From NCBI GenBank assembly GCA_905160935.1, contig CAJHZI010000705.1, positions 322,501-386,500 on the forward strand: 64,000 nucleotides of DNA, in the 5' to 3' direction. Both the position numbers and the translations under genes were made by a program. Under the pieces are notes generated by a model. It worked only from the letters and a program-made list of their open reading frames with translations, was not told the DNA's origin and did no database searches. This document shows, in pieces, positions 6,567-50,195 of the stretch; positions within the stretch are counted from its first letter, which is position 1, and every line of letters begins with the position of its first letter. The DNA comes from Enchytraeus crypticus (lineage: Eukaryota; Annelida; Clitellata; Enchytraeida; Enchytraeidae).

Positions 6567-6720
6567 ACTGAAGAATTGATAACAAACACGCAGAGACTTA
6601 TTTTATTATTGCAGCTGCTGAATCAAACAGCTGTTCATTTCGCCATCTTTGTTTAAAATACACATCACGATTTGGTTGCCATCGCTTGCTGCTGCTGAAG
6701 CTGAAGAAGGCTTCATTTCC
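6567..6720 (-). promoter_or_regulatory. GLG1 5' leader with two short upstream ORFs and an AAGATGGCG motif
   Basis: Upstream of the GLG1 start, the minus strand reads CAAAGATGGCGAAATGAAC at about 6632-6650. The first ATG opens a three-codon ORF (MAK, 6646-6635). A second ATG overlaps its stop and opens a ten-codon ORF (6638-6606). Both end before the main ATG. AAGATGGCG resembles the YY1-type initiator element seen at many animal housekeeping genes. The transcription start site is unknown, so leader status is inferred from position. Confidence 0.4.
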
Positions 6721-22500: not shown

Positions 22501-24508
22501 ATAGGTCATAGGTCTGACTCGAGTTTAAACAGGAAATTATCAGGAAAGCAGGCTACCAAATGTATGACATTCTACTTTTTGCGCAGATTTATTAAAATCC
22601 AATTTTCAAGCTTCCTAGACACTTGATTGATTGATTGATCAATTGACGGAATTAACGCACCTTTACTGTCAGCTTCAGTGTGTGGCTGACCGTCAGGCGA
22701 CATTCTTACTGCAACTGGCTGAATGATTCTAGATTCCTACAGAGAAACGTAAAGTCAATGTTAAAATGAGTTCCAATTATACAGTAAATCAAGTTCAGAA
22801 GCCAATAAAATCAGAGCTCTAGACTAGAGTCCAGTACACAGCAATATATTCATGTATCTCTCGCTCGTCCTATCAGAACTACAACAAGTACACAGCATAG
22901 AGACAAGTAGAGAACTACTACACAAAGTACATAGCATAGCGACAAGTAGAGAAATACTACACAAAGTACATAGCATAGAGACAAGTACAGAAATACTACA
23001 AAAAGTACATAGCATAGAGACAAGTAGAGAAGTAGTACAACAAGTACATTGCATACAGACATGGATTAATACAAATTTCCCTTCATTAAAAATTATTCCT
23101 CTACATCATATAACTGCGAAAAATTAAACTAATTAGAAGTAATCTAGCCAATAGATTCGGTATCAGATGACGAATTAGTTTTAATAGTTAAAATTTTACA
23201 AAGCGTTTACCGTCTACTTGATGGTAAAAGCTTAAAAAGTTTAATAAAGTTTAATCTAATCTCTAATACTATGAATGCGATAGAAGATATTAGGGAAAAG
23301 TTCACATTTTACATCTGCCTCCTTGTGACTACGATACCAGAAACAGCCGCGGCCACGACTCGAACCTGTGACCCCCTGATTAACAGACAAGTTTGCAGCC
23401 AACCAGGTCATCAGTCAACCAAGACTAGATATTATATCACTTCAGAAAATATTCTTTAAATTCCTTCCTTAAAAAATGCAATATTAATTACAAACCGTAC
23501 TGCGTCAATTAATCTCTCTTAGCAAGACTTATGTTTGAAATTTGATAGTAGAATTTAAATTTTAGCTAAATGTGGAGAGATATAAATGTAAATACAGAGT
23601 CAATGTGGAGAGATATAAATGTACATACAGAGTCAATGTGGAGAGATATAAATGTACATACAGAGTCAATGTGGAGAGATATAAATGTACATACAGAGTC
23701 AATGTGGAGAGATATAAATGTACATATGTAGTCAATGTGGAGAGATATAAATGTATATACGGAGTCAGCGATGACAGGTCTGAACTCAAAGTTGACTGGA
23801 GTGGGCTTGTTGCTCATGGAAGACACGGAACTGGAGGTGGGACTCGAAGGATGGGGGAATGTGGACGTCCACTGCTGAGCAACAACAACAACAACATTCC
23901 GAGATATCAGCAACAACAACAACAAAGTGATTTCAAAAAATCAGCTCGATCAACGACAAGTTCAATTGCATTAATATGCTCTAACTGTTGCGATACAATG
24001 TTACCTAAATGACGACCCTGATATCAACCTTGTAAGAGGAAACGGACGATAAACCTTTATTATTATCAAACAGAATACACTATATTATACACCATACAAA
24101 TAGCTTAGCATGAAAAAATTTAACATCTACCCTCAGATCCATAAAAAAGTGGAATATTTAGTTTAGTAATATTGTAGAGACAATATAGCCGAGAGACAAT
24201 ATATCAACAGAGAAGAGAGGAGGTTTTATATGCCATGGACCTACCAGTAGGCAGTGCACTAAGAGAGATGATCGAGGCACAAAAAGGTCAAGTTAGAACT
24301 TTTGTTGAATTAAAGGCACCACTGCACAGGTTAATAAACTGAATACGTGAGAGGGCGACAGAAAACAGAGAGTAAGAACACCAAATATCAATAGAAACAG
24401 ACGTCAAGAGAGTAGACAGTGGGAGGAAGAGTAGAGAAATAGAGAGAGAGAGATAGAAATAGAGAGAGGAAGACAGAGAGACAGTGTGAGAGAGAGAGAG
24501 AGAGAGGA

Positions 24509-24566
<58 letters not shown>

Positions 24567-27500
24567 GAAGACATACCTGACTAGATATGGAGGAGGTAGG
24601 GGAAGAACGCTTTAACGTAGCACTTGATATCTCTGATGAGTACTGTTCATCTGCAGGCAGACAATTCATCAGAAATAATTAAAACTAAAATATACAGAAA
24701 CTTTCTAGTATTGCGTGTAGCCACTAAAAATAGGTCAGTTGCAAACTGCAGCATCGAAGCTCCGTGCGAGGTGATTAAGCATGAAGAGAGGAAACCATAT
24801 ATAAGGTGTGGATAAGGCATAGACTTGGTGAAGGGATTAACTTGTTGATCTAAGGAGTGCTCCTATGGAGCGAGAAAGCAGACTTTGAGTATGATGTACC
24901 TTGAACCTGCCACTTGGCAGTGCACTGAAGAGAGGAAACCAACGGGAAGCGACCTCAAAAACCATATTTTTTTAAAGAAAAGGTTACATGGAGGCGTAGA
25001 TAAGGCATACACTTTGAAAACTATTACTTAGTTGATTGAGGGAGTAAGAAAGTAGACCGAAAAGGAAAATATGTACCATGGAACTGCAATTTAGGAGAAC
25101 ACAAGAGAGAAAATTTACAGAAACTGAGGAAGTACTGGAAGCTAAACATAAAATATTGCTTTCTATAAAGATAAAACAAAGTTTAATATCAGTTTCCTGC
25201 TAATAGCATGCCAGTGACAGGGAGAGCACTGGATTTGAAACCTACTGATCCGCTGTTGAACAAATTGCCAACAAGCCATCGATTTCGTCTGATTGAATAC
25301 AACTCAACGACACTAATATATCTATATCATCATCGTCATCATCATCATCTTCTTCTCTTGAATTTCAGTTCAACTAGAGTCAGTCTTAGTAAATTAATAT
25401 AATACTATATACATAATATATATTAAAACATAATTATACAGAATTACACATATAATATATATAATATATGTGACCACCTACAGTCACTGTTAGTCTTAGC
25501 TAAACACTAGGCACATAGAGATTCATATTATTAGGTTGTGAACCAAGACAATATTCTTACGTGATGAAAAGAAGTTAAACTATTATCATGCCATCTGCAT
25601 GAGAACAAATATTTTATACTCACCTAGTAATGAAGATAATAACAACTATAAAATGTACTTGACTATGAATATCACGCAAAAAAACAAAGAAATTAAATTT
25701 TACCGAGACACTGAGAAGAATATGGAATAAGAACAGGAGGGAGTGTATCAGGCAGCTCTATGTCGTTCCTACGTAATACTACGAGGTGCATCGCAGTGCA
25801 GAATTCTTCAAGCGACAAAGCGCCATCTCGGTTGATGTCTGAAAGCTGCCTGCAATAACATATGATAACACAGACTTAAATGTTATACAAAATATAGCCA
25901 AGGAATTCTATAATATTAACCTACAATATTAACCTACAGTCTACGACTCGAGGCCGTATAGCTTTGCAAAACTTTCCAAATAATAAGACAATGTACGCAA
26001 CAATGCATATAACAGCTAAAAACTGATGGAAAGGTTAAGAAAGAGAAAATCAAAGGTAAGTAGGATTGGAATCTGACGAACAATAGGTTTGTTAGAACGA
26101 TTCCATGGAGCATCAGTTAACTTCTAAGAAATGGTAACAACATGAACACAGTGCAACAGTGTTAAATACAAGTCTTATCCTCCTAGGCTTCATGAAGAAG
26201 AATATTAGAGATTGGACTAAAGGCATCACAGGCTAGTTGCAAAGCATTGGTACAGGAGTAAGGAACATAACACTAAAAGCACCCAGGCGAAGCTGAGTGG
26301 TCGAGCCAACAGACAGGTAGGTAAAACCAAAAAGTTTGCAGAAAACAAAGGTGATAAATATGCATGTATGAACTACTACTGCAGCAAAGCAGCACACACA
26401 CCTAGTATCAAATTTCTAATTTAAAAGTATTAACAAAGTCGCTAACAAGTTACATGCGATTATATGAAGCTAAATATACTATATATTTAGTTAAATTAAA
26501 TGTATCTTATTTATATATATATATTGTAAAACATTTATATTTAAATCCATTAAATGCAATCAATACTAATTTTGTCCATAAATAATTTTATTATTAGATT
26601 TGAGGCTAAATACACCAGTATACATAGGCACTGCAAAATGCTCATAAAAAGTATAAAATAGATCGATATCCAGATCGATATCTTGCACAGGTCAATAGCA
26701 ACTGATAAGTTACAAATAGCTATTTTATAATCTCTCTTTTGTATTCTTCCTAAGTGTAAGCCCAAGGTACATATTCAGACTCGCAATTTTCCATATTCAA
26801 ACTACGTAATAGCACTTGACTGACTAACAAGTTGGTCCCATTACAAAGGCTAAGAGTTTACCAAAACCGAAATGTACCCATTAACTTGAGGTGAGGAAAG
26901 AAAGAGAAGTACCCATTTCCTTTCTCAATTTTCCGCTTAGTCACTTCTTATGACACGAGAATTTTACAGGTATTTTACAGGTTTTATTGTGCAGTGAACA
27001 GGACACAACATTGGAAATTTTATAATGCACTGTAAACCCTCAAAGAATCATAAGTGCAATTGTGTACCTACCAGATCTTAGACAGTTCCTGAACAGGTAA
27101 TTTTGATTTCTCAAAAAATTCCTTAGCAACAGCACCTACAATACATAAAAAACAGTTATTGTCAGCTACTATTGTTGACTGCAGAGTAGCAATCCACTAC
27201 AGCTAAATGTAGTAGAGCTAAATTTAAAGAGTGCTTCCATAAACAAGTGTACTGTGAGAGATACAATGAGGATTCGAACATGTGACCACTTGATTATCAG
27301 GCAAGCATGCTAATAACTGAGACAGCACCAAGTTAAAATTTACATCAGGTGATACTTTCTAGAGGTAAAATTAACATTAAGAAAATTTTAAATTAAAAAG
27401 ACAATCGTTGTCAAGACTCTAATTAATTATCTTACCATTACGTACCACACCATGCAGATCTAAGAGACTAACATGCAAGGCTAATATACATAACACGAGA

Positions 27501-30500
27501 GATTTAAAGACCAATCAAATAGAAGCAATTCAACATGTACTTTTGATTGAATTATTTTTATTAGAACTTGAAGCTTTTATACAAGGAAAAAAGGCAATGA
27601 ACACTAACAATGAACACTTCAGCAATGAACACTTACTTCAATGAAATAAACACTTACAGCAATGAACACTTACTTCACTCAAAGTTGAAGAAATGAGAAA
27701 ACCATGTCAGCGACGAGAAAGAAATTGTATTAACCTTATATAACGCCTCTCAGATCTTCCTGCATGGTTAACTGATTGAATAGAGACGTAATGTTAATCT
27801 GATATAACACCTCTCAGATCTACCTGCATGGTTAACTGATTGAATAGAGACGTAATGTTAACCTGATATAACACCTCTCAGATCTACATGCATGGTTAAC
27901 TGATTGAATAGAGACGTAATGTTAACCTGATATAACACCTCTCAGATCTACCTGCATGGTTAACTGATTGAATAGAGACGTAATGTTAACCTGATATAAC
28001 ACCTCTCAGATCTACATGCATGGTTAACTGATTGAATAGAGACGTAATGTTAACCTGATATAACACCTCTCAGATCTACCTGCATGGTTAACTGATTGAA
28101 TAGAGACGTAATGTTAACCTGATATAACACCTCTCAGATCTACCTGCATGGTTAACTGATTGAATAGAGACGTAATGTTAACCTGATATAACACCTCTCA
28201 GATCTACCTGCATGTTTAACTGATTGAATACAGACGTAATGTTAACCTGATATAATCTTCATGCATGCTAACTAACGTTAACCTGATATAACGCCTCTCA
28301 GATCTTCCTGCATGGTTAACTGATTGAAGAGAGACATAATGTTAACATATGTTATGTTATGTTGACCCTATATTACGTCCTACCGACTTTGCCACTGGCT
28401 CCAGCAAGTGACGAAGTCGGTAAGACACTCGACCGCGGATCAGTATGTGCGGGGTTCAAATCCTGGGCTCGCACGTCACTGAGATCACTTTCAAGTGAGG
28501 AAACTAACGTTAACTTTAGCTTTATCAGCTTTAACTTGATATAGCATCTCTCAGATCATACAGAACTAATGCTAACCTGATATAACGCCTCTCAGATCAT
28601 ACAGAACTAGTGTTAACCTGATATAACGCCTCTCAGATCATACAGAACTAGTGTTAACCTGATATAACGCCTCTCAGATCATACAGAACTAGTGTTAACC
28701 TGATATAACGCCTCTCAGATCCTCCTGCATGGTTCTGAACTGATTGACGTAGTAGTCTCTCTGCTCGTCAGTGATGGCCCACATATCGTCTATTGTCCCA
28801 TCAGAGCTGATGGACAGCGTGTCAGTTTTACCGCTGTCCATGAACTGAGCCCACTCCTTGCGCTGATCCATCGACATGGAGCCTGACTGACCCGCTCCAG
28901 TCCCACCTACCAATCAATCAATTAAGCAATCTATCAATCAATCAATCAATCAATTAAGCAATCGATCAATCAATGCCATTGGCTAGAGCCAGTGGTGATG
29001 ACGGTAAGATAACCCTTTCAAGAGACGAAACTGACGATAACGTCAGTTTCATCTCTTGAAAGGAGCATCAGTGAAGGGCGAGCCAAGCATTTTAACCCCA
29101 CATATACTAATCTGCAGTCGGATACCTCACCATCATACAACTGGCTACAGCCTGAGCCACATGCACAATTGATAACAACCCATTCCCAATATTCCATATT
29201 GGCTATCTTCTATGACACTCTTAATAAAATTATTTTGTGACACAGACGACGGTGTTAGATAAAAGCTGGTAAAGCCAATATTAACGTTAATTTCCTCACT
29301 CAAAAGCGATGTCAGTGACAGCCGAGCCCAGGAATTGAACCTGTACACACTGATCCGCGGTCAAATATCTTACCGACATCGCCCCTGGTTACAGACAGAA
29401 TATGAAATATCAGATAGAATACTAATAACATATACTTACGCTCACTTTCGTCCTCAAATGAAGCCCAGCCTTTCTCAGCATGCTGTTCAGCGCTACCAGC
29501 TTCCACGACTGAAAAACCTTCACTACGAACTGCCTGCAGCTTCTGCTGAACCAGCTGCTTCTGCTGCTGCAGCTGCTGCTGATGTAGCTGCTGCTGTATT
29601 TGTTGCTGTTGTATTTGCTGCTGTTGCATTTGTTGTTGTTGTTGCATTTGTTGCTGTTGCTGGAGCTGTAACTGTTGCTGCTGTTGCACGATTAATTGTT
29701 GCTGATGCAATGCGTGCACCTGAGACGGATTGGTTGTTATAGCAGCTGTTGTCATAACAACGGGAAGAGGATGCACCACAGTGGTTGCCGCAGGAGCAGA
29801 CTGCTTCCTAGCAACATTCTCGAGGAGTGTGGGACGGGGAGCAGGGGGTGAGGTGGGAGACACCAGTGCAGCATCCTACAATGTTTCAACTAAATTATTG
29901 ATAGGAGTTCAATAAAAAGAAAGTCTTTAAAATAGTATATTATAAAGATAAAAAGCTAGAAGCTTAGGTTAACGTCAGTTTCCTCACTCGAAAGCTATGT
30001 CAATGACGGGAAAGCCCAGGATTTGAACCTCGCACATAATGATCCATGGTCGAGTATCTTACTGACTAAGCCACTGGCTCCAGCCATTAATAAATTAATA
30101 ATCCAACCTATTAATAAATTTCACTATTTCAATTTTCGGCAGCATGTTTAGAAGAAAGCCTATTGCATTTGTGGTAGTATTAAAAAAAATTATGTAAGCA
30201 GAAGCTCAAAGTAAATTTCCAAACCTTTTGAGGACCAGTTGAATCTCATTTATATGACAATTTCAGATTCACTTTAATAAGCTAACTTCGTTAATAGCAA
30301 AAAGAGATATTGAGACAGCGAGCTTAAGGCCATATGCAATATAATATAATAGATATACACCTTCCAATTTCATATTAGTGTTATTACAGGCTAAAGATAA
30401 ATGTTGCACTTTACACTACAATAATATACACTACATTGAACAGTATCTGCTTTACCCAAATAAAGAACAAAAACAAACCACTCATATACACACAGACTGT

Positions 30501-33500
30501 CATGCATTAAACAAAGCTATATCTGATGATGAAGCAGAGACTACGATTAAGAACAACACCTGTAGTCACACCGATTGTCATACAATCTATACCTGATGAT
30601 GAAGCAAAGGCGCTGTTGTAGCAATTGACAAAGATCTGGGAGCGACTGGGTAAGCAAAACGATTTGAAGTCTGAGCAGGCTGTACACCAGTCACAGTTCT
30701 ACACATATATCATACAAATATACATATACACAGAGACACACAAACACACATACATACATACACACAGAGACACAAACATAAAAAAATACATACACACACA
30801 GATACACATACATGCACACAAACACACACAAATAGACAGATAGACATAGAAACTGGCTGGAGCCAGTGGCGATGTCGGTAAGATATTCGACAGCGGATCA
30901 GTATGTGTGGATTTAAAATCCTGGGCTCACTTGTCACTGACATCGCTTTCAAGTGAGGAAAATGACGTTAACATTAGCTTTTATAAATACACACATAAAT
31001 GCACACATACATACACACAGAGACACACATACATGCACTTTGTTAAGTTCAAAAAGGTGGCTCAAATTCACACACTGACAAGTAAACACTGTAGAAAAAT
31101 TATTTTGGCAGCATTTAGACACATAACTTAAAAAATTAGCATGTTTAATCTTACCAATGTAAAGTAATATAAGTAGATGTTCCCAAACAATAATACCTAA
31201 AAGCATGAAAATTGTCTTTCCACCATCGTGATCTTCATGGCCATAAAATTATTCTAGCTTATAAATTCATTTTATAGTTGAAAAAAGCAGGTAAAGCTAA
31301 TATTAACGTCAGTTTTCTCAGGCAAAAAGGATGTCATTGACGGACGAGCCCAGTACTTGAACCCACAATACCTCAATATGTCATCGGCACTGACTCCAGT
31401 CAGTGGCGATGGCGTATTGAAAATTATATACATGTATCATTTGAAAAGGTTAATGATACATTGGGCTAATGATAAAGGTAATGATATATTGATTAATCAT
31501 ACATGTATCATTTAAGTGCAACAGAAATAGTACTATCCTCGAATTGTACCAACATAAAATGGAATAGGTAAGACAAGAGGTACTGAGTCATGACAGACGA
31601 CTAAGCAGAGGCTGAGATTATTAATACACATCATGTTCAAGTTCAAAAACTTTACCAAGATTTGGATGAGGCACCATCTTAGAATCAAAACGGAGTACTA
31701 TAACAGTCTGATAGGATGTTTTTTTAGTTAGCAAATGAGAATCTGCATATAATCACACTCATATTTACATCTAACTGGCTATATAGTAAAACACAGCAAC
31801 GGAACTAAATTGGATAGCATTCTTACTATCCAACATGATAGCGACATACGATACGATAGCGAAATACAAATGCGAATATTTTCTGTCAAGTCTGTCCAAT
31901 TAGTCTCTTCTCAATTTTATAATATATTCGTTTATTTGTGTTTAATGTGACAACCATAGACAGTTACAGTACAGAAATTCCAACAGAAACAGCATAACAA
32001 AATGCAGATATAGCATAAAATGTAAATTTTAGTAGACTAGAAAGAGAACTGAGCTACCTATCGTAGTAGACGTACTGCTGATGCTCAGTAGCACCAATGT
32101 GAGGAGGCTGCCCCACTTCCATCAGCTGCTGCTGCTGCTGTAGATGTTGTTGTTGTAAATGATGCTGCTGCAGCTGAGCAGGCAGGGTAACGGGGTGCTG
32201 ACTGATGGGAGCCACAAAAGGGTGGGTGTGAGGCGGCAGCTGACCACCCACCACTCCTCCTCTCCACACCTCTGTCAACATTCAAACTACGTTATGAATT
32301 TATGAACACTCGCTGGAGCCAGTGGCAAAGTCGGTAAGATACTCGACCGCCGATCAGTATGTGCGGGGTTCAAATCCTGGGCTCTCCTGTCACTGACATC
32401 ACTTTCGAGTGAAGAAACTGACGTTAACCTTAGCTTTTAGATATACAAAAAGTGCCGATAAATATTTATGGAAGTAGCGAGAATAAATAAATCAATCAAT
32501 AAGAATTTAATGTCTAGCTCCTTGCCATAAGGCAATGTCAGGGACGACTCTTGCAGAATAGACACAAACAGTTGACAAAGACCACAAAGACTCTAGAGAG
32601 ATGTATTAATTCCTATGTTAACTGTACATAGTTCTCTCTCGCTCTTTCACACAAAATCTGTGGTTAAGCTCCATCATGTGCACTCTACAGATCAATGCCT
32701 ATAATCAATCAATCAATCTCTTCACAAAAAGCTAAATCTAATCCACATTTTACTATAGCCTATAGCTTAAGAAATATATGGCTTTGGAGGTGGCTTCCCT
32801 TTGGCTTCTTCATTTATTGCTCAGTCGAATCTAATGACAATGCGTTTTACCGTTTGTCTATTCTTCAGTTGCCCGGACACTCGGTAACTACTATATATAT
32901 TAATAATAATTGTTGTATTACTAATGCCGATATTTACTAAGCTTGTCTTAAACTGCAGATAACCTATAACTCGGATGATAGTAAAATTACGGATCACAAA
33001 TATTGGAATTCACCAGTAATGTCATGAGGCTATTAACTACTAGGTTACCCTTCGAAATTATATTTCAGCCAATGACAGTGCTGTCTATCAGGATGATCAA
33101 CCAGTCAGCTTACTCCGTAAACAAAACTGGAATATTACTTTTAATCAAGGTATTAACCTCAGTGTAAACCTCCAACAAAAGGAGGCGCAGCTACGCCTTA
33201 CTTTAAACTACGATTTTAGCTTTTGGAATATCAAATTGCGAATAATCAGTAGTTAAACCACTGCTGAGTTTTAAACTGAGGTTTATCTCGCTAGTGAATA
33301 CCGCCAAAAGAATTTCAAAGCTTTAGTTGAACAAGCTTGTCAGAGTATCAGTTTATAAAGTTATATTCTCCTACCTTGAATCGGTTGCTGCGGTGGAACA
33401 GAAAACCTCGGCAGTGGTAGCTCTCTCCCTGCATACAATACAGCAATTAAATTAACTGAACAGGCTATTAGTCAATCAAGAAATCACCAAAAAAAAATAT

Positions 33501-37859: not shown

Positions 37860-40800
37860 GTATGATTTTTAAAGAGTCATTAATCAACGACAGCTTGCCA
37901 AATTTAATTACATCACTTGATTAATTTTTAGTTTAACTATATAAATATTTAGGCCTTGATTTAGGGCATAGAACGGAGAGTTATATTTATAATCACGAGA
38001 TGTTTCAGGTTAATGTTGATATTTTTATAATATCTATTAATCATCATCATCATCATCTTGATCTTACCTTAAATCCCAGTTAAACTAGGGTCGGGATACG
38101 AATAAATCTTCTCCAATTCTCTCTGTCCTAAACCATATCATCAATCATTCACCTATTTTTCAAGTCCCTCTTAAACACTGCATCCCACGTCAGTTGTGGT
38201 CTACCGCTTTCTAGTGTAGTTTTTAGTTTTTGATTTCTAGTTTCTGCTTTTAATGCAGATGAAGAGTTTCGTGTTCTTGTAATACCTGGACATACAAAAG
38301 TTCCTGAGAAAAGAGAAGAATCGAACAGAAGAAGACGTGAGGTAAGAATTTTTTGTTGGCCATGTGGTTACACACATAACAATCACAAAAAGTGTTGCAG
38401 AATTTCCTTTTTTAGTTGCTGTTTTTATAGCATTCATTATTTCCTTCTACCTCTCTATGATATTAATGATTACAATTGTTGCCTTTTGATCTCGCACTGA
38501 TGGAAGCCGTCACAGATTTAATAGAAACCTTCAAACACCAGGGGGATTTTTCATTCCAAGCTGTCAACAATCGGTCTTCCAAAGTGTTCATCCAGCCATG
38601 TACTAATCGAGTCCGACATAGGTTAACTTCGCTCAAATGATGCGCAGCTTAACCGAGTGCACTAAATCCCGCCCGTTAGTTATTTGGCTTCCACACTTTG
38701 GCAACCAAGCTTAACTGATATGGAATTGTCAGGTATTTTTGTAAGAATAGCTGGATTAGCCAATCACTTTTGTATTTTGGATTTGTACTGATTAAATAAT
38801 TAATGAAGGACGAGTTTACTGATTGATAGGTTGAGCCTGTGGTTTGTTGGCAAGTTATTCAATGGCGGATCAGTAGGTGCAGAGTTCAAAATCCGAAATC
38901 CAGTGTTTTCCTTGTCACTGAAGTGCTATTCAAGCAGGGAACTTACGTTAACTTGACTTAAGCGTTTGGCTTTTAATATAATTGTTAATAATATTTAATA
39001 ATAGTTTTTTAATTGATTAAGCGATTGTGTACTGATTGATTTCTTGATTAGTGGATTGTACCGACTGATTGACTGATGAATGGACTGCATATGGATTGAA
39101 TTGTGTATTCATGATTGGATTGTGTACTGACTATTACTGATTGCTGACATGCAATTGGTGATTTTACTGTTTACTGAGTTATTAATTGGTAATGTAGTTT
39201 GTACCGAGTGATTGATTTAGGTTCCTCCCCCGCGCTATAAAAGCATGAAGCTAGGAGATGACTGGACTAACATCTGGCCAGCGGCTCACACTTTCAAATG
39301 GTCTGTGGTTCCGTTCCCAGTCAGGCAAGGCTTTGTCGAAGTATGTTCTCTTATCTCTATATGCTTTTATTACTTCCTGTTTGATTTGCTGCTAAATTAT
39401 AGTCATTAATTAATCTTTTACTTTAAATCACATCTAACGATATTAGTAGGTATGAGACTAGGGTGATTATTAGGGATGAAACTGAGGGTAATAATTGGGG
39501 GGGGGGGGCTTGACTCTAGCTATATCTATATGGAAAAGGGGTTGAAAGTTTTGGGTGCCTGAGCATCGAATGTATGATTGTAATAGGCACTGTCAGGTAG
39601 TGATTATATTAGTCACTGTCAGGCAATGATTGTAACGGGCTCTGTCAGGCAATGATTGTAACGGGCTCTGTCAGGCAATGATTGTAACGGGCTCTGTCAG
39701 TCAATGATTGTAACAGGCACTGTCAGATAATGATTGTAACAGGCACAGTCAGGTAGTGATTATATTAGTCACTGTCAGGTAATGATTGTAATGGGCTCTG
39801 TCAGGCAATGATTGTAACAGGCACTGTCAGTCAATGATTGTAACAGGCACTGTCAGATAATGATTGTAATAGGCACAGTCAGGTAGTGATTATATTAGTC
39901 ACTGTCAGGTAATGATTGTAATGGGCTCTGTCAGGCAATGATTGTAACAGGCACTGTCAAGTAATGATTGTAGTAGGCATGTTGGGTAATGATTGTAGTA
40001 GGCACCGTCTGGTAATGATTGCTATGTAGTAACACATGATCTCTTGATTGATGATAAGATTGCTACAAAATCTTTAATGTGACTCTCATTTGACAATGCA
40101 TCCTTTGAAATTCTAATATGTAAGTCAAGCTTATGCATTTGCAAGAAATAGTAATTCAATTCACTTTATTAGTTACACAATTTTAATAAATTTGTTAAAT
40201 GAATTCTGTTGTTAGAAATCTGAGAACGATGGCGTAACCCCTTCGAAATATGCCAATGCAGAACTGATGAAGATTCCCAACTTCCTTCATCTCACACCAG
40301 CTCATGTCAAAAAACATTGCGCAGCATTAAAAGGTTTGAAACGTTGTCACAAATCAATAAATGAAGTTAAGCTATATCAGGCTGAGCTAGTACTTGGATG
40401 GGTACCACTTTGGAAGACTGAGTGTTAACAGCTTTAAATAAATAAAACTCTAAGGTGTTGGGTGGTTTTTCTTAAATCCGTTCTGACTGAATTTTATGCT
40501 CTACCAAAAGGCAATGATTACTAAAAACCTTGAAGAGGAAGGCTGATTTAATGAACACTCCAAAAATTGAAACTAAGCAAGGAAGTGTAGTTCTTGCAGT
40601 ATTACATGTGTGTGAACGTATGAAAAAACAAAAAAATAAATAATAAATAGCTAGCAATAAACTTAATATTATTAATTCTAAGTATAATATTCCTGTAAAA
40701 GCTTTCCACCTTTTGCTGGTTCAGTAAATGATCACCACACTCTAGCGCTGGTGCCGAATAAATCTGAGGTATTTGCTTAGAGTGCCCATGTAATGTCTGC

Positions 40801-43800
40801 CAGCTGACTTGCTTTAAAAATGTATTAATTTGAAATGTTTATTCTTCTTGTGACGTGTTCAAATAAAAGAATAAAACTCTCTGAAGTCATTGTAAGGACA
40901 ATATGTAGAATGAAAGAATAGTAAGATATATGTAATATTATTTCTAAATAAATTGATTCTGAATTAATGAGTATTGTTGATCATGATAACTGTGATAAGT
41001 ATATTGATTATCTATGTATAAGTTATGATCTTAATATCCTAATGCGGGTACTTACTAAGCTTGCCATTAACCGTGGTTTACTTAAACCACGGAAAAGGGT
41101 TAGGCCATGGAATAGAAATTATGGTATTCGCAAGAAAATAAGAGTATAATAAAGTTATAAGAGTCTGTGTGATACTTGAAACTAGCATCATTTTTGGGAT
41201 GCAGCCATACAATTACTATAGATACTAACTAAGCCTAGTTTAGCCTTAGTTTTCTGTTTCGAAGATTGTCAGTGATAAGACGAGTACTGGATTTGAATGC
41301 TACACGTACTGATCCACAGCTGAACACCTAACGTATCATGCTAGTGGTTTAATTCACATATGGCTTCAAAATGGCAGGATTGTTTAAATAATTTTTAATA
41401 TGGGTGTAAACATCGTTAGATTTATCTAACAACAAGAGACGTCCCTGACATTGCCTTATGTCAAGGAATCAGAAGTTAAATTCTTATTGAGTGATTGATT
41501 GATCTGTTGATTAATAGAGTTCTGCAGTGCTTGGCCGGAAGGGCTCGAGACAGATGAAGACTGTGAAAATCACTTCCCAATAGAGGTCATCACTAGAGAC
41601 TATCTGTTTGACTCTGTCTCTATCAGAGATTCCAGAGCCAGGCCTGTCACTCTGAGGGTACGTACATCTGTGTGCTTGCTTGTGTGCGTGCCTGCTTGTG
41701 TGTGTGCTTGTTTGTGTGTGTGCTTGTTTGTGTGTGTGCCTGCTTGTGTGTGTGCATGAGTTGATGTGTGTGCTTGCTTGTGTGTGTGCTTGCTTGTGTG
41801 TGTGCGTGAGTTGATGTGTGTGCTTGCTTGTGTGTGTGCCTGCTTGTGTGTGTGCTTGTTTGTGTGTGCTTGCTTGTATGTGTGCTTGCTTGTGTGTGTG
41901 CGTGAGTTGATGTGTGTGCTTGCTTGTATGTGTGTTTGCTTGTGTGTGTGCTTGCTTGTGTGTGTGCTTGCTTGTGTGTGTGCTTGCTTGTGTGTGTGCA
42001 TGAGTTGATGTGTGTGTGCATGCCTAAGTTAAATTCATTCTTGTAGCCTTCCTTCCTCAAGAAGGCTACAAGATGAAAATTCTATGATGGAATTCGATCT
42101 TTTTTGTATATCGCTGCTGATGCTGATGAAAAATTGATTACCAGTATCATCAGTAACAAACAGCATGTATTGCACCGGCTTCTTCCGCCGCTTAAAGATA
42201 ATTTGAACTTTAGGCTCAGGTACAGGGCTCATCCTTTCTCGTTACCATCTAGGCGCTCACCTATGATGGACAGCTTGATGAATTGATTGGTTGATCACAG
42301 GTGAAGCGTATTGATTAACTGATAAATAGCTTGATGAATTGATTGATTGATCACAGGTGAAGCTATCAGCCCTGGAGCTGGACTACCATGCTCGTGATAA
42401 GCTGATACGTTTGGCAGGTTTTAGATACGACAAATCAACCGATACTCTCACCATTGAAACTGATAGGTATGCTTATGGAACTTATATCATTCTATGTCGG
42501 TTTAAAAATGGTCTTCTCCTTGTTTATAAGTGTACTAACCAACGATATTCGTAACACAGGCAATGCTAGCGATCGTTGTCTCTCTTTGCCTAATATATCT
42601 ATACAAAAAAATGTTGGTTGTGTGTAACATCGTATTGTGGGGCTCATCAGGGCTCATCTAGTTGACTGGACACATTCGAACTACTGATATAAAGACTGGT
42701 TGAAGGTTATTACGACTTACGGGTTTAGTGCTGTATCTGAATTTTGATGAAGTGGAAATGAGCTTCTGATAATTATAATTATAGTTAATACTTCTAGTTA
42801 ATGATTATACTGTTTATTGGTGATATTGTTTGATGGAAGTGTTTGTATTTCTATGTTATATAGATGTCCTCTTAAGACACAAAACAGAGATTACGTTAAG
42901 TATCTGCTCACAGCCCTCTACATGGAGTCCTGGGTATGTGCAGCCTTATACTACTACATTAGTAATAATTATAATAATCATCATCATCATCATCATCATC
43001 ATCTTCCTTTATGAGGAAACTGACGTTATCATAAGCTTTATCAAGCTTTATGTAGCTTTACCTGGCTGGAGCCAGTGGCGGAGGATGTAAGATACTCGAT
43101 CGCAGATCAGTATGTGCGGGGTTTAAATCCTGGGCTCAGCTTTCACTGACATCGCTTTCGAGTGAGGAAACTGACGTTAACCTTAGCTTTTTTTATCTTT
43201 TTTGCTTTTACCTTTTAATCCCTAGTTTAGCTGAGGTCGGGAAAATTAATACTAATATTAATAAATATAATAACTACAAACAACTTACATAGCAGTGTCA
43301 TAGCTTTTTTACAGGTTCCTAGATAATTATTATCATTTCTTTCCGTTGGTATTCATACTTTTCCTTATTGATCGCAATTCGAAGTAAGCTCCGATACATG
43401 ATTAACCTTTCATGAGCACAAGAAGATCTCCAACATTTGTTGACTGACCTGGGCTTAATATCAATATAGTAGTATTTTTTAATTTTATTGTTATTGTGAT
43501 TTTATTGCATTAATTAAACATTTATACAATGTTAGTTCGTAGGTTTATCATTGATAACAGAGAAGTAGAATATTAAATCCATCAAATTAACCCAATGTGA
43601 AAGCAAATCACTTTACATTAATTTCCATCTTTTTACTGTATTTATAAACTATACTTGGTATATCTTCTTGCTTGTCTGATGTTATCCATATTTGTTTTAA
43701 TTTCTATTGTATAGTCGAAGATGATATCTATCAAATTTTTAGATGATACCTAATTTTAATTGATTTGTGAGAATAGATGTTTATTTTCTCAAACTAAAAA

Positions 43801-45477
43801 CCTTTGGTAAAACTCTCATCCAATAATACAATTGTTGTGTATAATATTTACAGAGAACTGAGTACTATGAAGCGCAAAAGATGTTATAATTTACAGTGCA
43901 TAAAATATTTCTTTCCAATTTGTAAAATCTTTGACACTCTCTCATTCTCTATCTACTGTCTCTATCTATCATCCAGTATCTCAGCCGTTGTTTTGTATAA
44001 TACAGCTCTGTCTATTGTCTCTATCTATCATCCATTATCTCAGCCGTCGTTTTGTATAATACAGAGAACTGAGAGCTGGGAGACAGAAAAGACGTTGGAC
44101 GACATGGAGAAGTATTTCTGGGATCTGAATCGATCTCGTGCAGTGGTCATGAAGACCCTGACCATGATGAAGCAGGTCTGGTGTTGTCATGGATAAGTGT
44201 TCTTAATTACAATTTCTCTCCTACATTCACCTCATATTCGCCAGTTTAATTTCACAGTTTTGGTTGCTTATAGACCATAAATATTGATCTGATTTATTAT
44301 ATATATCGTATCGGTAAACGCAAATGCAATTATTACAAAATTTGATTATCAAAGAATACTAGGAATACTGCTTTTTCGGCGAAAAATCTAATAACGGCGA
44401 AGGTGCCGTTATTAGATTTTTTGAGTGTCTCGATGTTTGAGATCAAAGAAACTAAAAGAATCTCAATTTTAACATATTTCTTTGTTTCTGTAATTAATGT
44501 CATTATTATTTCAGTGGCCAAGAGTTAATTGATATGTCTCTTTCGTAACGCAAAGGAATCTTTAGTCAGTCCGGCTGGAATTCCTAATCATGCTTTCTTG
44601 CTTAACAAGCAATGGTGTTATCAACTTGGCCATTCAGCAGTATGGTTTAAATCTTTAGTATATTTCTCATATTCCACTAGATCTTTAACTATTAAAGATA
44701 AGTGGTTCTAAGGGTTTGAGTCCCCGTGTTGTGTCCGGGTTGTTTGAAGAATTGACCAACCGGTGACTGCACGTGTCGTAGAAGGCGACTAAAGCACTAA
44801 GATCCATACCAACGTCAGAATGGGCATTCGGTTGGTGGGCGCCTAGGCCCCAGAAATTGCTACAAAAATTTAAACGAATGGAAAAGTCTCAAATAGGGGA
44901 TTGGCTAGTGGTGTGGTGTAGGACAGAGAGGATTTGAGACAGTCTCTTTGTATCCCGACTCTGGTTAAACTGGGATTCAAGGGGAGATGATGATGATGAT
45001 GATGGTTCTCAGGGTTTGAGCCGGACGTGAGCCAGTCACTGCCAGTGGACTTGGTACTGAGCTAATTAGGTACTGGCTCAACCATAAGCCGTTACAATCT
45101 TATCTGAGATGTTGATAAGTTTGAAGAAGTTTTATTTTTCCATTTAATAACATCGTTAATCGTACTAATTTTTTGTGTATCTGTAACAGAATTCAAAGAA
45201 TAAATCTGAAACTGTGGCGGACCCAGTGAAACAGACTAATGTGGCGGGTGAGGGACTGGTGAAGCAGACTACTGACGCGCAGGTACCAGACTATATCAAC
45301 AGCCTGCCTGATGATCCTACCGATGATGATATACTGGCTCTACCGCAGGTCAAGGAATATAAGTGGGTTGTTGAGGAACTGGTAAACGAGGAAGAAGATT
45401 TTAAAGTGGTGGAATTGTACAAGAATGCCGTTAAACGCCTACTTCTCAATCCTAAACAATTACAACACAATCTATAA
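37634..45477 (+). CDS. MRPS35: Mitochondrial small ribosomal subunit protein mS35 (9 coding exons)
   Basis: Exons: 37634-37859, 38259-38341, 39221-39340, 40216-40333, 41518-41657, 42357-42466, 42864-42933, 44065-44175, 45190-45477. They sum to 1266 nt (421 aa plus stop), with phase agreement at all eight introns. Conserved landmarks: [82 protein letters not shown] and the C-terminal [15 protein letters not shown]. The N-terminal stretch is basic with no acidic residues early on and contains RHFTTSS, consistent with a mitochondrial presequence. It is about 100 aa longer than human MRPS35 (323 aa from memory), mainly through the presequence and an acidic segment before KEYKW. It is transcribed divergently from REPS. 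Confidence 0.93.
38040..38220 (-). repeat. SINE-C copy in MRPS35 intron 1
   Basis: CATCATCATCATCTTGATCT ... AACTAGGGTCGGGATACGAA ... CAGTTGTGGTCTACCGC. It ends about 40 bp before the exon 2 acceptor. Confidence 0.7.
38259..38341 (+). CDS. MRPS35: MRPS35 coding exon 2
   Basis: 83 nt, phase 1 to phase 0, AATGCAG acceptor and GAG|GTAAGA donor. Encodes [20 protein letters not shown] then SNRRRRE. It has no strong family match itself, but it is the only segment found that restores phase between exons 1 and 3. Confidence 0.8.
38845..38972 (+). repeat. Decayed SINE-A
   Basis: TTGAGCCTGTGGTTTGTTGG ... GGCGGATCAGTAGGTGCAGA GTTCAAAATCC ... GGGAACTTACGTTAACTT. Clearly related but diverged. Confidence 0.55.
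39221..39340 (+). CDS. MRPS35: MRPS35 coding exon 3
   Basis: 40 codons in phase 0. [20 protein letters not shown] matches the DWxxVYPxAAPFKPSAVPLP motif of mS35. Donor GAA|GTATGT. Confidence 0.93.
39580..40025. repeat. 26-bp minisatellite in MRPS35 intron 3, about 16 copies
   Basis: Unit near TGTCAGGCAATGATTGTAAC GGGCTC, with higher-order periodicity: a block ending in a TATATTAGTCACTGTCAGG unit recurs three times. Confidence 0.88.
40216..40333 (+). CDS. MRPS35: MRPS35 coding exon 4
   Basis: 118 nt, phase 0 to phase 1. [20 protein letters not shown] is the most conserved stretch of the family. Confidence 0.95.
41238..41510. repeat. Decayed SINE-A (minus) then LINE 3' tail (plus)
   Basis: 41238-41350: GCCTTAGTTTTCTGTTTCGA ... 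TACTGGATTTGAATGC ... GTACTGATCCACAGCTGAAC. 41428-41510: ACAAGAGACGTCCCTGACAT TGCCTTATG ... TTCTTATTGAGTGATTGATT GAT, which ends within 10 bp of the MRPS35 exon 5 acceptor. Confidence 0.65.
41518..41657 (+). CDS. MRPS35: MRPS35 coding exon 5
   Basis: 140 nt, phase 1 to phase 0. [20 protein letters not shown] then [10 protein letters not shown], ending RARPVTLR at an AGG|GTACGT donor. A TG-rich minisatellite begins directly after the donor. Confidence 0.95.
41660..42025. repeat. 16-bp TG-rich minisatellite right after MRPS35 exon 5
   Basis: Unit near TGTGTGTGTGCTTGCT, about 22 copies, with a recurrent GCGTGAGTTGA variant. Open frames on both strands (HTHKQA, or CVCLLVC) are artefacts. Confidence 0.92.
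42272..42363 (+). repeat. Duplicated splice acceptor upstream of MRPS35 exon 6
   Basis: A 36-bp block (AGCTTGATGAATTGATTGGT TGATCACAGGTGAAGC) at 42272-42307 is repeated with one mismatch at 42328-42363. It includes the acceptor CACAG and the first seven exon bases. The real exon is the second copy, because the first runs into a stop after five codons (VKRID). Confidence 0.9.
42357..42466 (+). CDS. MRPS35: MRPS35 coding exon 6
   Basis: 110 nt, phase 0 to phase 2. [20 protein letters not shown] then [17 protein letters not shown] copy of its acceptor and first seven bases lies 56 bp upstream. Confidence 0.95.
42864..42933 (+). CDS. MRPS35: MRPS35 coding exon 7
   Basis: 70 nt, phase 2 to phase 0. 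[20 protein letters not shown] then ESW, matching [20 protein letters not shown] of human MRPS35. Donor TGG|GTATGT. Confidence 0.95.
43008..43245 (+). repeat. SINE-A pair, tail fragment plus full copy, with SINE-C remnants
   Basis: 42978-43001 is an (ATC)n run; 43008-43060 is a SINE-A tail (GAGGAAACTGACGTTATCAT AAGCTTT); 43061-43192 is a full SINE-A; 43205-43240 (TTAATCCCTAGTTTAGCTGA GGTCGGGAAAA) is a minus-strand SINE-C fragment. Confidence 0.75.
43952..44064 (+). repeat. Duplicated polypyrimidine tract and acceptor upstream of MRPS35 exon 8
   Basis: Two 54-bp copies (43952-44005 and 44011-44064), each TCTAYTGTCTCTATCTATCA TCC ... TTTTGTATAATACAG. The second is the exon 8 acceptor. Use of the first would add 59 nt and an in-frame TAA. 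A partial third copy of the exon border (TTTACAGAGAACTGAG) is at 43846-43861. Confidence 0.9.
44065..44175 (+). CDS. MRPS35: MRPS35 coding exon 8
   Basis: 37 codons in phase 0. [20 protein letters not shown] aligns with NTEEWEKSKTEADMEEYIW. The donor CAG|GTCTGG is weak. The acceptor and its pyrimidine tract are duplicated 59 bp upstream. Confidence 0.92.
44383..44425. repeat. Perfect hairpin in MRPS35 last intron
   Basis: AAAAATCTAATAACGGC, a 6-bp loop GAAGGT, then GCCGTTATTAGATTTTT. 17-bp perfect arms. No flanking transposon recognised. Confidence 0.9.
44710..45003 (+). repeat. SINE-C, most complete copy, (GATGAT)n tail
   Basis: B-box-like GGTTTGAGTCCCCGTGTTGT, then CACGTGTCGTAGAAGGCGAC TAAAG, GGTGGGCGCCTAGGCCCCAG, GACAGAGAGGATTTGAGACA, and TGGGATTCAAGGGGAGATGA TGATGATG. 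An A-box-like segment may lie near 44620-44640. The GTCGTAxxAGGCGACTAA core recurs in this window at 2840, 11040, 19730, 22080, 47880 and 53165. Confidence 0.83.
45190..45477 (+). CDS. MRPS35: MRPS35 terminal coding exon 9
   Basis: 288 nt in phase 0 ending in TAA. An acidic, probably flexible segment ([15 protein letters not shown]) precedes the conserved [17 protein letters not shown] and [10 protein letters not shown] end. AATAAA lies at 45481-45486 just after the stop, but it may be too close to be the functional poly(A) signal. Confidence 0.93.
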   Translation, partial: NSKNKSETVADPVKQTNVAGEGLVKQTTDAQVPDYINSLPDDPTDDDILALPQVKEYKWVVEELVNEEEDFKVVELYKNAVKRLLLNPKQLQHNL

Positions 45478-48520: not shown

Positions 48521-49194
48521 AGTCTTAATAATATTTGTTGTCTCTTTATCAGATGTATATCTTCGTCAAACCTCTTAAGAAATCATAATTTTGTGTGTTC
48601 CACTTGTCCATTCCTTTCAGTAAATGATGTTTTTCTTTTTTCTGATAGGGACCTTTTATCTGATTTCACGTTTCGCAGCCAGATAGGATTGTGATTCACA
48701 CTTAAGTGCTAACATCGTCTTCTTGAATTAACGAATCCAACATTTATATTGCCAAATATTTCCCGATAGCCAGATTGATCGTGCTTTATTTAACAGCTTT
48801 GCCACAACAGGCCAGCATAAAATCCCAGTGAGAGTTTGACAAGTGGTGTCCGGTAGCAGGAATAACAGGACGATTAATTCGTCGAACACCGGATGTCCAA
48901 CTGAGAACGGTTTATGGGGATCCTGTGTCGGATTTGTGGAATGAATGCAGTTTGAGAGTAGGGGGAGGGGGGGGGGGTTAAGCCTTTAAGCACCTTACGA
49001 GTTTAAAGCAAGGAAATTATGTTTGACAAATTGTTTAGAGATATTGATAACAGGTTCAGCTTACCCGAAAAAAATGATCATTGCGTTAGTTTATAATACT
49101 GTTTAGTATCATGATCGATCTGCTTTCAAACGTTTTATAACAATAATAATAATAATAACAATAATAATAATAATAATTAATCGAGCTCATTGAC

Positions 49195-49590
49195 ACTATG
49201 GCAAACTCCTACCTGAATACGACTTCAGTCACAGCCGGTGGTGCTGCTGTTCATGCCGCCTCTAGGAAGTTGAATAAATACCGTGATCTGTCCTTAGGAT
49301 ATGAAATTGTTCCGGTGGCTATTGACACCATGGGCCCGATGAATCCCGAAGAAGTTGACTTTATTAATGGCATAGGCAGACTTATTGCAGAGCAAACCGG
49401 CGATAAGCGAGAGACATCTTTTCTTTGGCAAAGGCTTTCCATGACTTTGCAAAGATTTAATGCAGTCTGCTTCAACAATTCTTTTAAGCCGCTTGATGAC
49501 CTCGAGTAGCCGGGCGGCGATTCAGCACGTATTGCTCGAATCGTTTTTATCAAACCCCAGGTTCTTTACACCGGGGTAAAAATTAAAAAA
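49195..49590 (+). mobile_element. LINE-3 C-terminal ORF fragment, 103 codons
   Basis: The frame from 49198 reads AGGAAVHAASRKLNKYRDLS, then GDKRETSFLWQRLSMTLQRF NAVCF, then TAG. The EIVPVAIDTMGP ... GDKRETSFLWQRLS pattern is a common C-terminal tail of RT polyproteins in marine invertebrate LINEs. The sequence after the stop (CCGGGCGGCGATTC ... TTTACACCGGGGT) is the 3' end. Preceded by a degenerate AATAAT tract. Confidence 0.75.
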
Positions 49591-49764: not shown

Positions 49765-50005
49765 CGATGGAGTTGACTTCATTATTGGCATATGCAGACT
49801 AATGTAGAGCTAACCGGCGATAAGCGAGAGACATCTTTTCTTTGGCAAAGGCTGAATTTGCAAGGATTTAATGCGGTCTGCTTCAGCAATTCTTTTAGGC
49901 CGCTGGATGACCTCGAGTGGCCGGGCGGCGATTCAGAAAGTATTGCTCGAATCGTTTTTATCAAGCCACGAGTTCTTTACACCCATGGTAAATTTAAAAA
50001 TATAA
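49765..50005 (+). mobile_element. LINE-3 C-terminal fragment, second copy
   Basis: CGATGGAGTTGACTTCATTA ... GGCGATAAGCGAGAGACATC TTTTCTTTGGCAAAGG ... CTCGAGTGGCCGGGCGGCGA TTC. Same end as the copy at 49195-49590, with small deletions. Lies in the same orientation about 180 bp downstream. Confidence 0.75.
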
Positions 50006-50039
50006 TAATAATACATTTCGTCCGTTTTTTCATCCAAAT

Positions 50040-50195
50040 ATAATGTCATGAAGGGACATCCCACAGTACACATCACTACAGATCATTTCACCCAGCCCAC
50101 TCTGCTTTTTCCCAAAAAGAAATGTAGCCTACTTGGGGGGAAGTAGGTCCTTAAATAAAATCCGGTCCGGTGATCAAAAATGGTCAGAATAAATA
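50040..50195 (+). repeat. Dispersed repeat R5, copy 2
   Basis: GTCATGAAGGGACATCCCAC ... CACTACAGATCATTTCACCC ... AAAATCCGGTCCGGTGATCA. Matches 5035-5160. Confidence 0.6.

Follow-up and report, generated by a model that had tools for sequence, protein, structure and literature searches.

Copies of the end of a REPS exon and of its 5' splice site form tandem arrays in the following intron

Results

The REPS-like gene and its neighbours

The window, by which we mean the whole 64-kb stretch of DNA that was analysed, carries on its minus strand a REPS-like gene (RalBP1-associated EH-domain) whose 17 exons, located between 35728 and 16822, join in frame to encode a protein of 826 aa. A predicted-protein search with this model, in which 7978 candidates were scored, returned 681 relatives at E ≤0.001. 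Among the best 120 of these 681, the three top matches are unnamed (53-57% identity) and the best named ones come from annelids (Ridgeia, Lamellibrachia, Owenia), nemerteans, the brachiopod Lingula and many molluscs; chelicerates are few and rank lower, and no lancelet occurs among the named matches, many of the 120 being unnamed. On this protein similarity we take the animal to be a spiralian, and probably not a lancelet. The protein contains a polyglutamine stretch, encoded by CAG-rich sequence in exon D2 (29535-29680, minus strand), which largely corresponds to a gap in seven aligned homologues.

On the plus strand, seven exons located in 39221-45477 belong to a gene for the mitochondrial ribosomal protein mS35 (PDB match 2e-9, Pfam MRP-S28). 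Two segments of the minus strand, 546-827 with a match to Pfam Cys_rich_FGFR (1.1e-10) and 6144-6602 with no Pfam match, are parts of one gene that we take to be GLG1-like. The reading frames at 49177-49509 and 49777-50043 (plus strand) have TGDKRETSFLWQRL in common and resemble repeated fragments of mobile elements. No tRNA was found in the window in a search run with the bacterial code, and none of ten single reading frames searched against Pfam passed a curated cut-off.

The end of exon E

Exon E of the REPS gene (28700-28906, minus strand, 207 nt) encodes the beginning of the second EH domain, the first half of which is made of the end of exon E together with exon F. Exon F (27072-27135, minus strand) is the next exon; it has the acceptor TATTGTAG and was positioned from the gene model and from an alignment with PDB 1fi6, the EH domain of REPS1. 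Pfam EH recognizes the domain begun in exon E (5.6e-20), and the alignment with 1fi6 is free of gaps over the exon E/exon F junction (E=7.2e-18), as are those of all seven aligned homologues. Because the structure and the seven homologues align across the junction in this way, the end of exon E was placed at 28700, with CAG/GTTAAC as its donor. The exon does not stop before this position, in agreement with an earlier annotation made from the letters of the window (hereafter the sequence-only reading). At this end the protein reads ...RGVISG and the DNA ATATCAG/GTTAAC, and the real 5' splice site GTTAAC (28694-28699, minus strand) would be read in frame as G-GT-TAA, a stop. At the other side of the exon, a CAAT-type tract (28911-28974) lies a few bases upstream of the acceptor, in the position expected for the pyrimidine tract.

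Two types of unit repeat the exon E boundary

After the real donor of exon E, 14 copies of the boundary are present, all of them in the intron separating exons E and F and belonging to two types of unit, 41 and 64 bp long. The last 'exonic' bases of these copies are 28659, 28618, 28577, 28536, 28283, 28247, 28183, 28119, 28055, 27991, 27927, 27863, 27799 and 27735; the count leaves out two weaker pattern matches at 28367 and 28220 (4 mismatches each). The order behind the donor is a 41-bp array, a SINE-like element, a single unit of the 64-bp type, a shortened unit and a 64-bp array. Tandem Repeats Finder delimits the 41-bp array at 28531-28721 (minus strand, boundaries 28659, 28618, 28577 and 28536), with 4.7 copies that include the exon end itself as the first unit; each unit consists of 22 nt of exon end and 19 nt of intron. 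The SINE-like element located between both arrays (28391-28530, borders approximate, no strand assigned) was identified by blastn of 28360-28540, and its family is found at 10 other places in the window on both strands (E <1e-15, 81-88% identity, matches of 78-138 bp). It is followed by a single exon-like copy of the 64-bp type (28277-28340, minus strand, 44/45 aligned exonic nt) and by the shortened copy (28241-28276, minus strand, boundary 28247), in which 9 identical exonic nt precede GTTAACA. The 64-bp array itself (27730-28255, minus strand, 8.2 copies by Tandem Repeats Finder, boundaries 28183 to 27735) is built of units comprising about 45 nt of exon end with a 3-nt deletion, the donor and a short filler.

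The last 22 exonic nucleotides are identical in four copies (28659, 28618, 28577, 28283) and match at 21 positions in eight others (28183 to 27735) and at 18 in copy 28536, while copy 28247 keeps just the final 9 in a row. In the nine copies of the 64-bp type (28283 and 28183 to 27735), 45 of the last 50 exonic nt can be aligned with 41-44 matches and a common 3-nt deletion. The inner units share derived changes (41-42/45 nt exon-like) and the outermost ones, 28283 and 27735, are closer to the exon (44 and 43/45), in an informal comparison of nine units from one locus. The dinucleotide GT is retained in 13/14 copies (27799 has AT), AG/GT in 12/14 and the complete CAG/GTTAAC in 10/14. The sequence-only reading had every unit keeping the same donor; this is overstated, since one copy has lost the GT and four the exact donor sequence.

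The 52-nt boundary of exon E reached a score of 41.5, when 200 shuffled sequences gave 14 at most. The last 24 nt of the exon alone scored 22 against its own intron, whereas exon ends compared 240 times with foreign introns of this gene never exceeded 12. As these scores far exceed the foreign-intron and shuffle maxima, a chance likeness between the arrays and exon E is excluded, and the earlier proposal that the arrays repeat the exon end and its donor is upheld, with 14 copies. An unrelated 41/64-bp satellite that landed on the exon was rejected as a source: the exonic part of the unit is REPS coding sequence aligned without a gap in seven homologues, and exon E is therefore the origin of the repeats.

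Predicted consequences of using an array donor

In a leave-one-out matrix derived from the two genes of the window, the real donor of exon E scores 2.6, the fourth lowest value among 22 donors; its duplex with U1 amounts to -5.6 kcal/mol and 5/16 REPS donors are weaker. Five of the 64-bp units also carry CAG/GTAGAT, at a place where exon E has no GT, and this site outscores the real donor both in the matrix (9.0 vs 2.6) and in U1 duplex energy (-8.0 vs -5.6 kcal/mol). Both rankings are rough, given the small size of the matrix and the simple duplex energy used for U1. The ladder of identical competing sites put forward in the sequence-only reading is thus retained in that most copies keep a usable GT, and has to be amended to take in these five stronger sites. 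With so weak a real donor and five stronger sites in the array, leakage to array donors is plausible. Using the donors of the 41-bp array would extend exon E to 248-371 nt, inside the 54-436 nt range of the 24 exons modelled in the window, and exon size therefore does not rule them out. Donors of the 64-bp type would require an exon of at least 624 nt, above all 24 modelled exons.

Each of the 14 boundaries was joined to exon F in silico and all 14 gave the same product, with a stop after residue 432 (...DLRGVISG), because the first in-frame codon past the real donor is TAA. The length included is a multiple of three for 5/14 boundaries and the product is unchanged either way. A shift of reading frame, which had been anticipated from unit lengths, is therefore not what use of a later copy would cause.

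Four more boundaries are duplicated in the window

The exon E boundary is not alone: duplications also involve two other donors of REPS and two acceptors of mS35, some of them with just 6-7 exonic bases. A 33-bp array delimited by Tandem Repeats Finder (23569-23767, minus strand) abuts the donor of REPS exon I, which ends at 23761, and repeats TGACTC[CT]/GTAT. This boundary scores 16-37 depending on the window used, with 6-7 exonic nt repeated; taken alone, its exonic part (score 7) stays below the control value of 11 reached with other introns. The 33-bp unit keeps the frame and contains no stop, and would add 11 aa per later unit if used. GT is kept in 4/5 later boundaries, three of which score 3.7 compared with 2.2 for the real donor. 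Being in frame and without a stop, the exon I array is a better candidate for variation of the protein than the one behind exon E. The end of REPS exon D1 (exon end at 30593) has a single copy at 30514-30539 (minus strand), in which the donor GT is changed to AT; 16 of the 17 exonic nt aligned are identical and the score is 20, with a shuffle maximum of 14 in 200.

In the mS35 gene, the acceptor of exon x4 (exon start 42357) and the first 7 nt of the exon have one upstream copy, with its acceptor before 42301 (42264-42363, plus strand); the alignment of 44 nt contains 40 matches and scores 36, compared with a shuffle maximum of 15 in 300. The acceptor of exon x6 (exon start 44065) is duplicated as a 59-bp x 2 intronic repeat (43947-44064, Tandem Repeats Finder), and an older copy has its exon start at 43854 (whole region 43838-44108, plus strand). 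The two copies score 36 and 21.5, with shuffle maxima of 16 and 13 in 300; the exonic part alone scores 13, no higher than the foreign-intron maximum of 13 for REPS acceptors. The acceptor of exon K was marginal (score 14, 1/200 shuffles) and was not counted as a boundary copy. Elsewhere in mS35, a 16/50-bp TGTGTGCTTGCT array occupies 41669-42016 (plus strand), starting about 11 nt past the donor of exon x3.

Splice sites are not preferred targets of duplication

The frequency of local copies at boundaries was compared with that of other sequences in a sample of 22 introns of the two genes, using a score of at least 16 and 60 shuffles for boundary windows or 40 for random windows. Significant local copies were found for 3/22 donors and 2/22 acceptors with exon-heavy windows, and for 5/22 in each of four other windows that were half-and-half or mostly intronic. 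Donors H and x3 and acceptors D1, E, I and O were flagged in mostly intronic windows and not in exon-heavy ones, and were not counted as duplicated boundaries. Of 550 52-mers drawn at random from these introns, 106 have a local copy, against 0/37 of those from exon interiors. This background is about as high as the rate at boundaries; splice sites are therefore not favoured in this sample, and a special targeting of splice sites was rejected on these 22 introns, boundaries being duplicated no oftener than intronic sequence. Combined, these data indicate that introns of the window duplicate locally in general and that coding exons are kept clean.

Discussion

A probable passive growth of repeats across an exon edge

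The most likely account of the arrays, to which we assign a probability of roughly three in four, is a passive growth of repeats, tolerated because splicing would keep to the first donor. Slippage during replication or unequal exchange would repeatedly generate short tandem duplications in the introns of the window; some of these would happen to run into an exon, where selection acting on the coding sequence would halt their further spread. By analogy with cases described in amphioxus, the 5'-most donor would normally be joined to exon F, and for this reason the array would be tolerated. Occasional use of a later copy would produce an mRNA with a stop right after ...RGVISG, probably removed by nonsense-mediated decay.

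The arrays might have a function instead. If their donors competed with the real one and the transcripts stopped after ...RGVISG were degraded, the number of units would set the amount of REPS mRNA. Such a regulatory ladder of 5' splice sites would be consistent with the GT kept in 13 of the 14 copies, with a weak real donor outscored by five CAG/GTAGAT sites, with the finding that every later donor is predicted to be a poison donor and with the ordinary size of the exons that the 41-bp array would yield. The 31-bp VNTR of human CBS, in which each unit also carries a 5' splice site, is reported to give alternative splicing. That VNTR is also said, in the title of Lievers 2001, to be associated with reduced CBS activity, which points in the same direction. 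However, the exact donor is lost in 4/14 copies and there is therefore no sign of selection keeping it, donors of the 64-bp type would impose an exon far above the modelled range, and the published amphioxus 'mirages' (minisatellites straddling an exon/intron boundary) are said to splice normally (PMC3087553). We consider a ladder setting mRNA dose unlikely; tolerance of the array as the first donor wins is better supported, mainly by the amphioxus analogy. A broader proposal would have boundary-spanning minisatellites frequent enough in this invertebrate lineage to tune genes, the exon E array as a poison-donor ladder for mRNA dose and the exon I array as an in-frame ladder (11 aa per unit, no stop) varying protein length, both shifting with repeat number between individuals or tissues; we regard it as highly doubtful.

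Other readings of the exon E arrays have less in their favour. Tandem duplication of AG/GT segments may represent a step to a new intron or exon, according to the Rogers model, which has been published together with a recent potato case (PMC4974935) and was proposed for mirages by the amphioxus authors (PMC3087553). Against it, the REPS protein given by the gene model is collinear with its homologues and has no array-derived exon, and all array readings hit a stop immediately in this frame; the chance that the arrays are such a step appears slim. Splicing from copy to copy could also be recursive or internal, restoring the normal exon end while the array is removed stepwise: AG/GT is kept in 12/14 copies and excision between two of these restores the same junction by sequence. 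Yet the 41- or 64-nt introns involved would be far under the shortest of 22 measured introns (320 nt), and the AG sites of the array score 2.1 or 4.4 in 11/14 copies and below 0 in three, when just 6/23 real acceptors fall below 4.4 (leave-one-out) and the exon F acceptor, which itself contributed to the matrix, reaches 12.1. Recursive splicing is in our view slimmer still. Mis-assembled reads, near-identical tandem units being a classic source of assembly error, might have created the extra copies. Arrays with units of two kinds, substitutions peculiar to single units, degenerate copies on the outside and, between them, a diverged SINE-like element would be hard to produce in this manner, and an artefact is the least probable of these readings; the copy number of the arrays may still be wrong. 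Binding of U1 to the array, suppressing premature polyadenylation, was also considered, and a single AATAAA/ATTAAA match behind the array, at 27562, is all that was found in its favour.

The exon E arrays would extend mirages, which have been described mainly in lancelets, to an apparent spiralian, in which two genes within 64 kb have five duplicated boundaries between them. The intronic control suggests a simple cause with no attraction to splice sites, namely that tandem duplication is fast in introns, now and then runs over the edge of an exon and is then checked by selection. The REPS array also provides, behind a single exon, a natural series of many 5' splice sites that are nearly identical, from which the rules of choice between equal donors might be approached.

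Comparison with known systems

In human CBS, the 31-bp VNTR is named c.1444_1467+7(16_21); it lies at exon 13-intron 13, is polymorphic and has 16-21 units (PMC2630376, PMC1395315). As in REPS, many copies lie behind the real exon and each unit carries a 5' splice site, the CBS unit being by its name composed of 24 exonic and 7 intronic nt; unlike in REPS, the gene is a different one and copy number is known there to be polymorphic. Human CBS is also affected by c.844_845ins68, in which an intron/exon junction is duplicated and two adjacent sites compete, one of them being chosen and the protein remaining normal (PMC2630376). A duplicated junction with competing splice sites is common to this insertion and the REPS array, and the insertion differs in being a single 68-bp duplication at intron 7/exon 8 with the distal copy favoured. 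Genes of human segmental duplications contain variable internal tandem repeats, some of which are located at exon-intron boundaries (PMC2812944). Their units are also of minisatellite size; those at boundaries may form novel introns, whereas the REPS arrays sit in an existing intron. Earthworm metallothionein has intronic minisatellites, and the available text does not state that they span splice sites (PMC12783039). Among the papers screened by title and opening of the abstract, on minisatellites at splice donors or boundaries and on spiralian cases, none described a boundary-spanning minisatellite outside lancelets and humans, which leaves absence unproven.

The closest likeness is with the mirages of amphioxus, which are minisatellite-like tandem duplications across exon/intron boundaries at 5' and 3' ends and have been reported in Adh3, the globins BflGb6 and BflGb9, TnC and PGBD5 (PMC3087553, PMC3902484). 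RT-PCR on Adh3 and globin genes is said to suggest that they leave splicing undisturbed (PMC3087553). The REPS arrays are likewise minisatellite-like (41 bp x 4.7 and 64 bp x 8.2), and their units of 41 and 64 bp, as well as the 33-bp unit behind exon I, are inside the 10-72 bp given for amphioxus Adh3. In both systems a unit joins an exon edge to an intron edge, 12/14 copies in REPS having no more than one mismatch to the final 22 exonic nt before the donor region, and AG/GT is present in many units and not in all (AG/GT in 12/14, GT in 13/14 here). Inner units are homogenised and cluster edges excluded in amphioxus; the corresponding values here are 41-42/45 for inner units and 44 and 43/45 for the outermost ones, from an informal comparison of nine units at one locus. 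Both 5' and 3' boundaries are hit, in this window as REPS donors and mS35 acceptors. Unlike the REPS arrays, which are described from sequence alone, amphioxus mirages had their splicing and length variation examined by experiment. In conclusion, the exon E arrays are probably a mirage.
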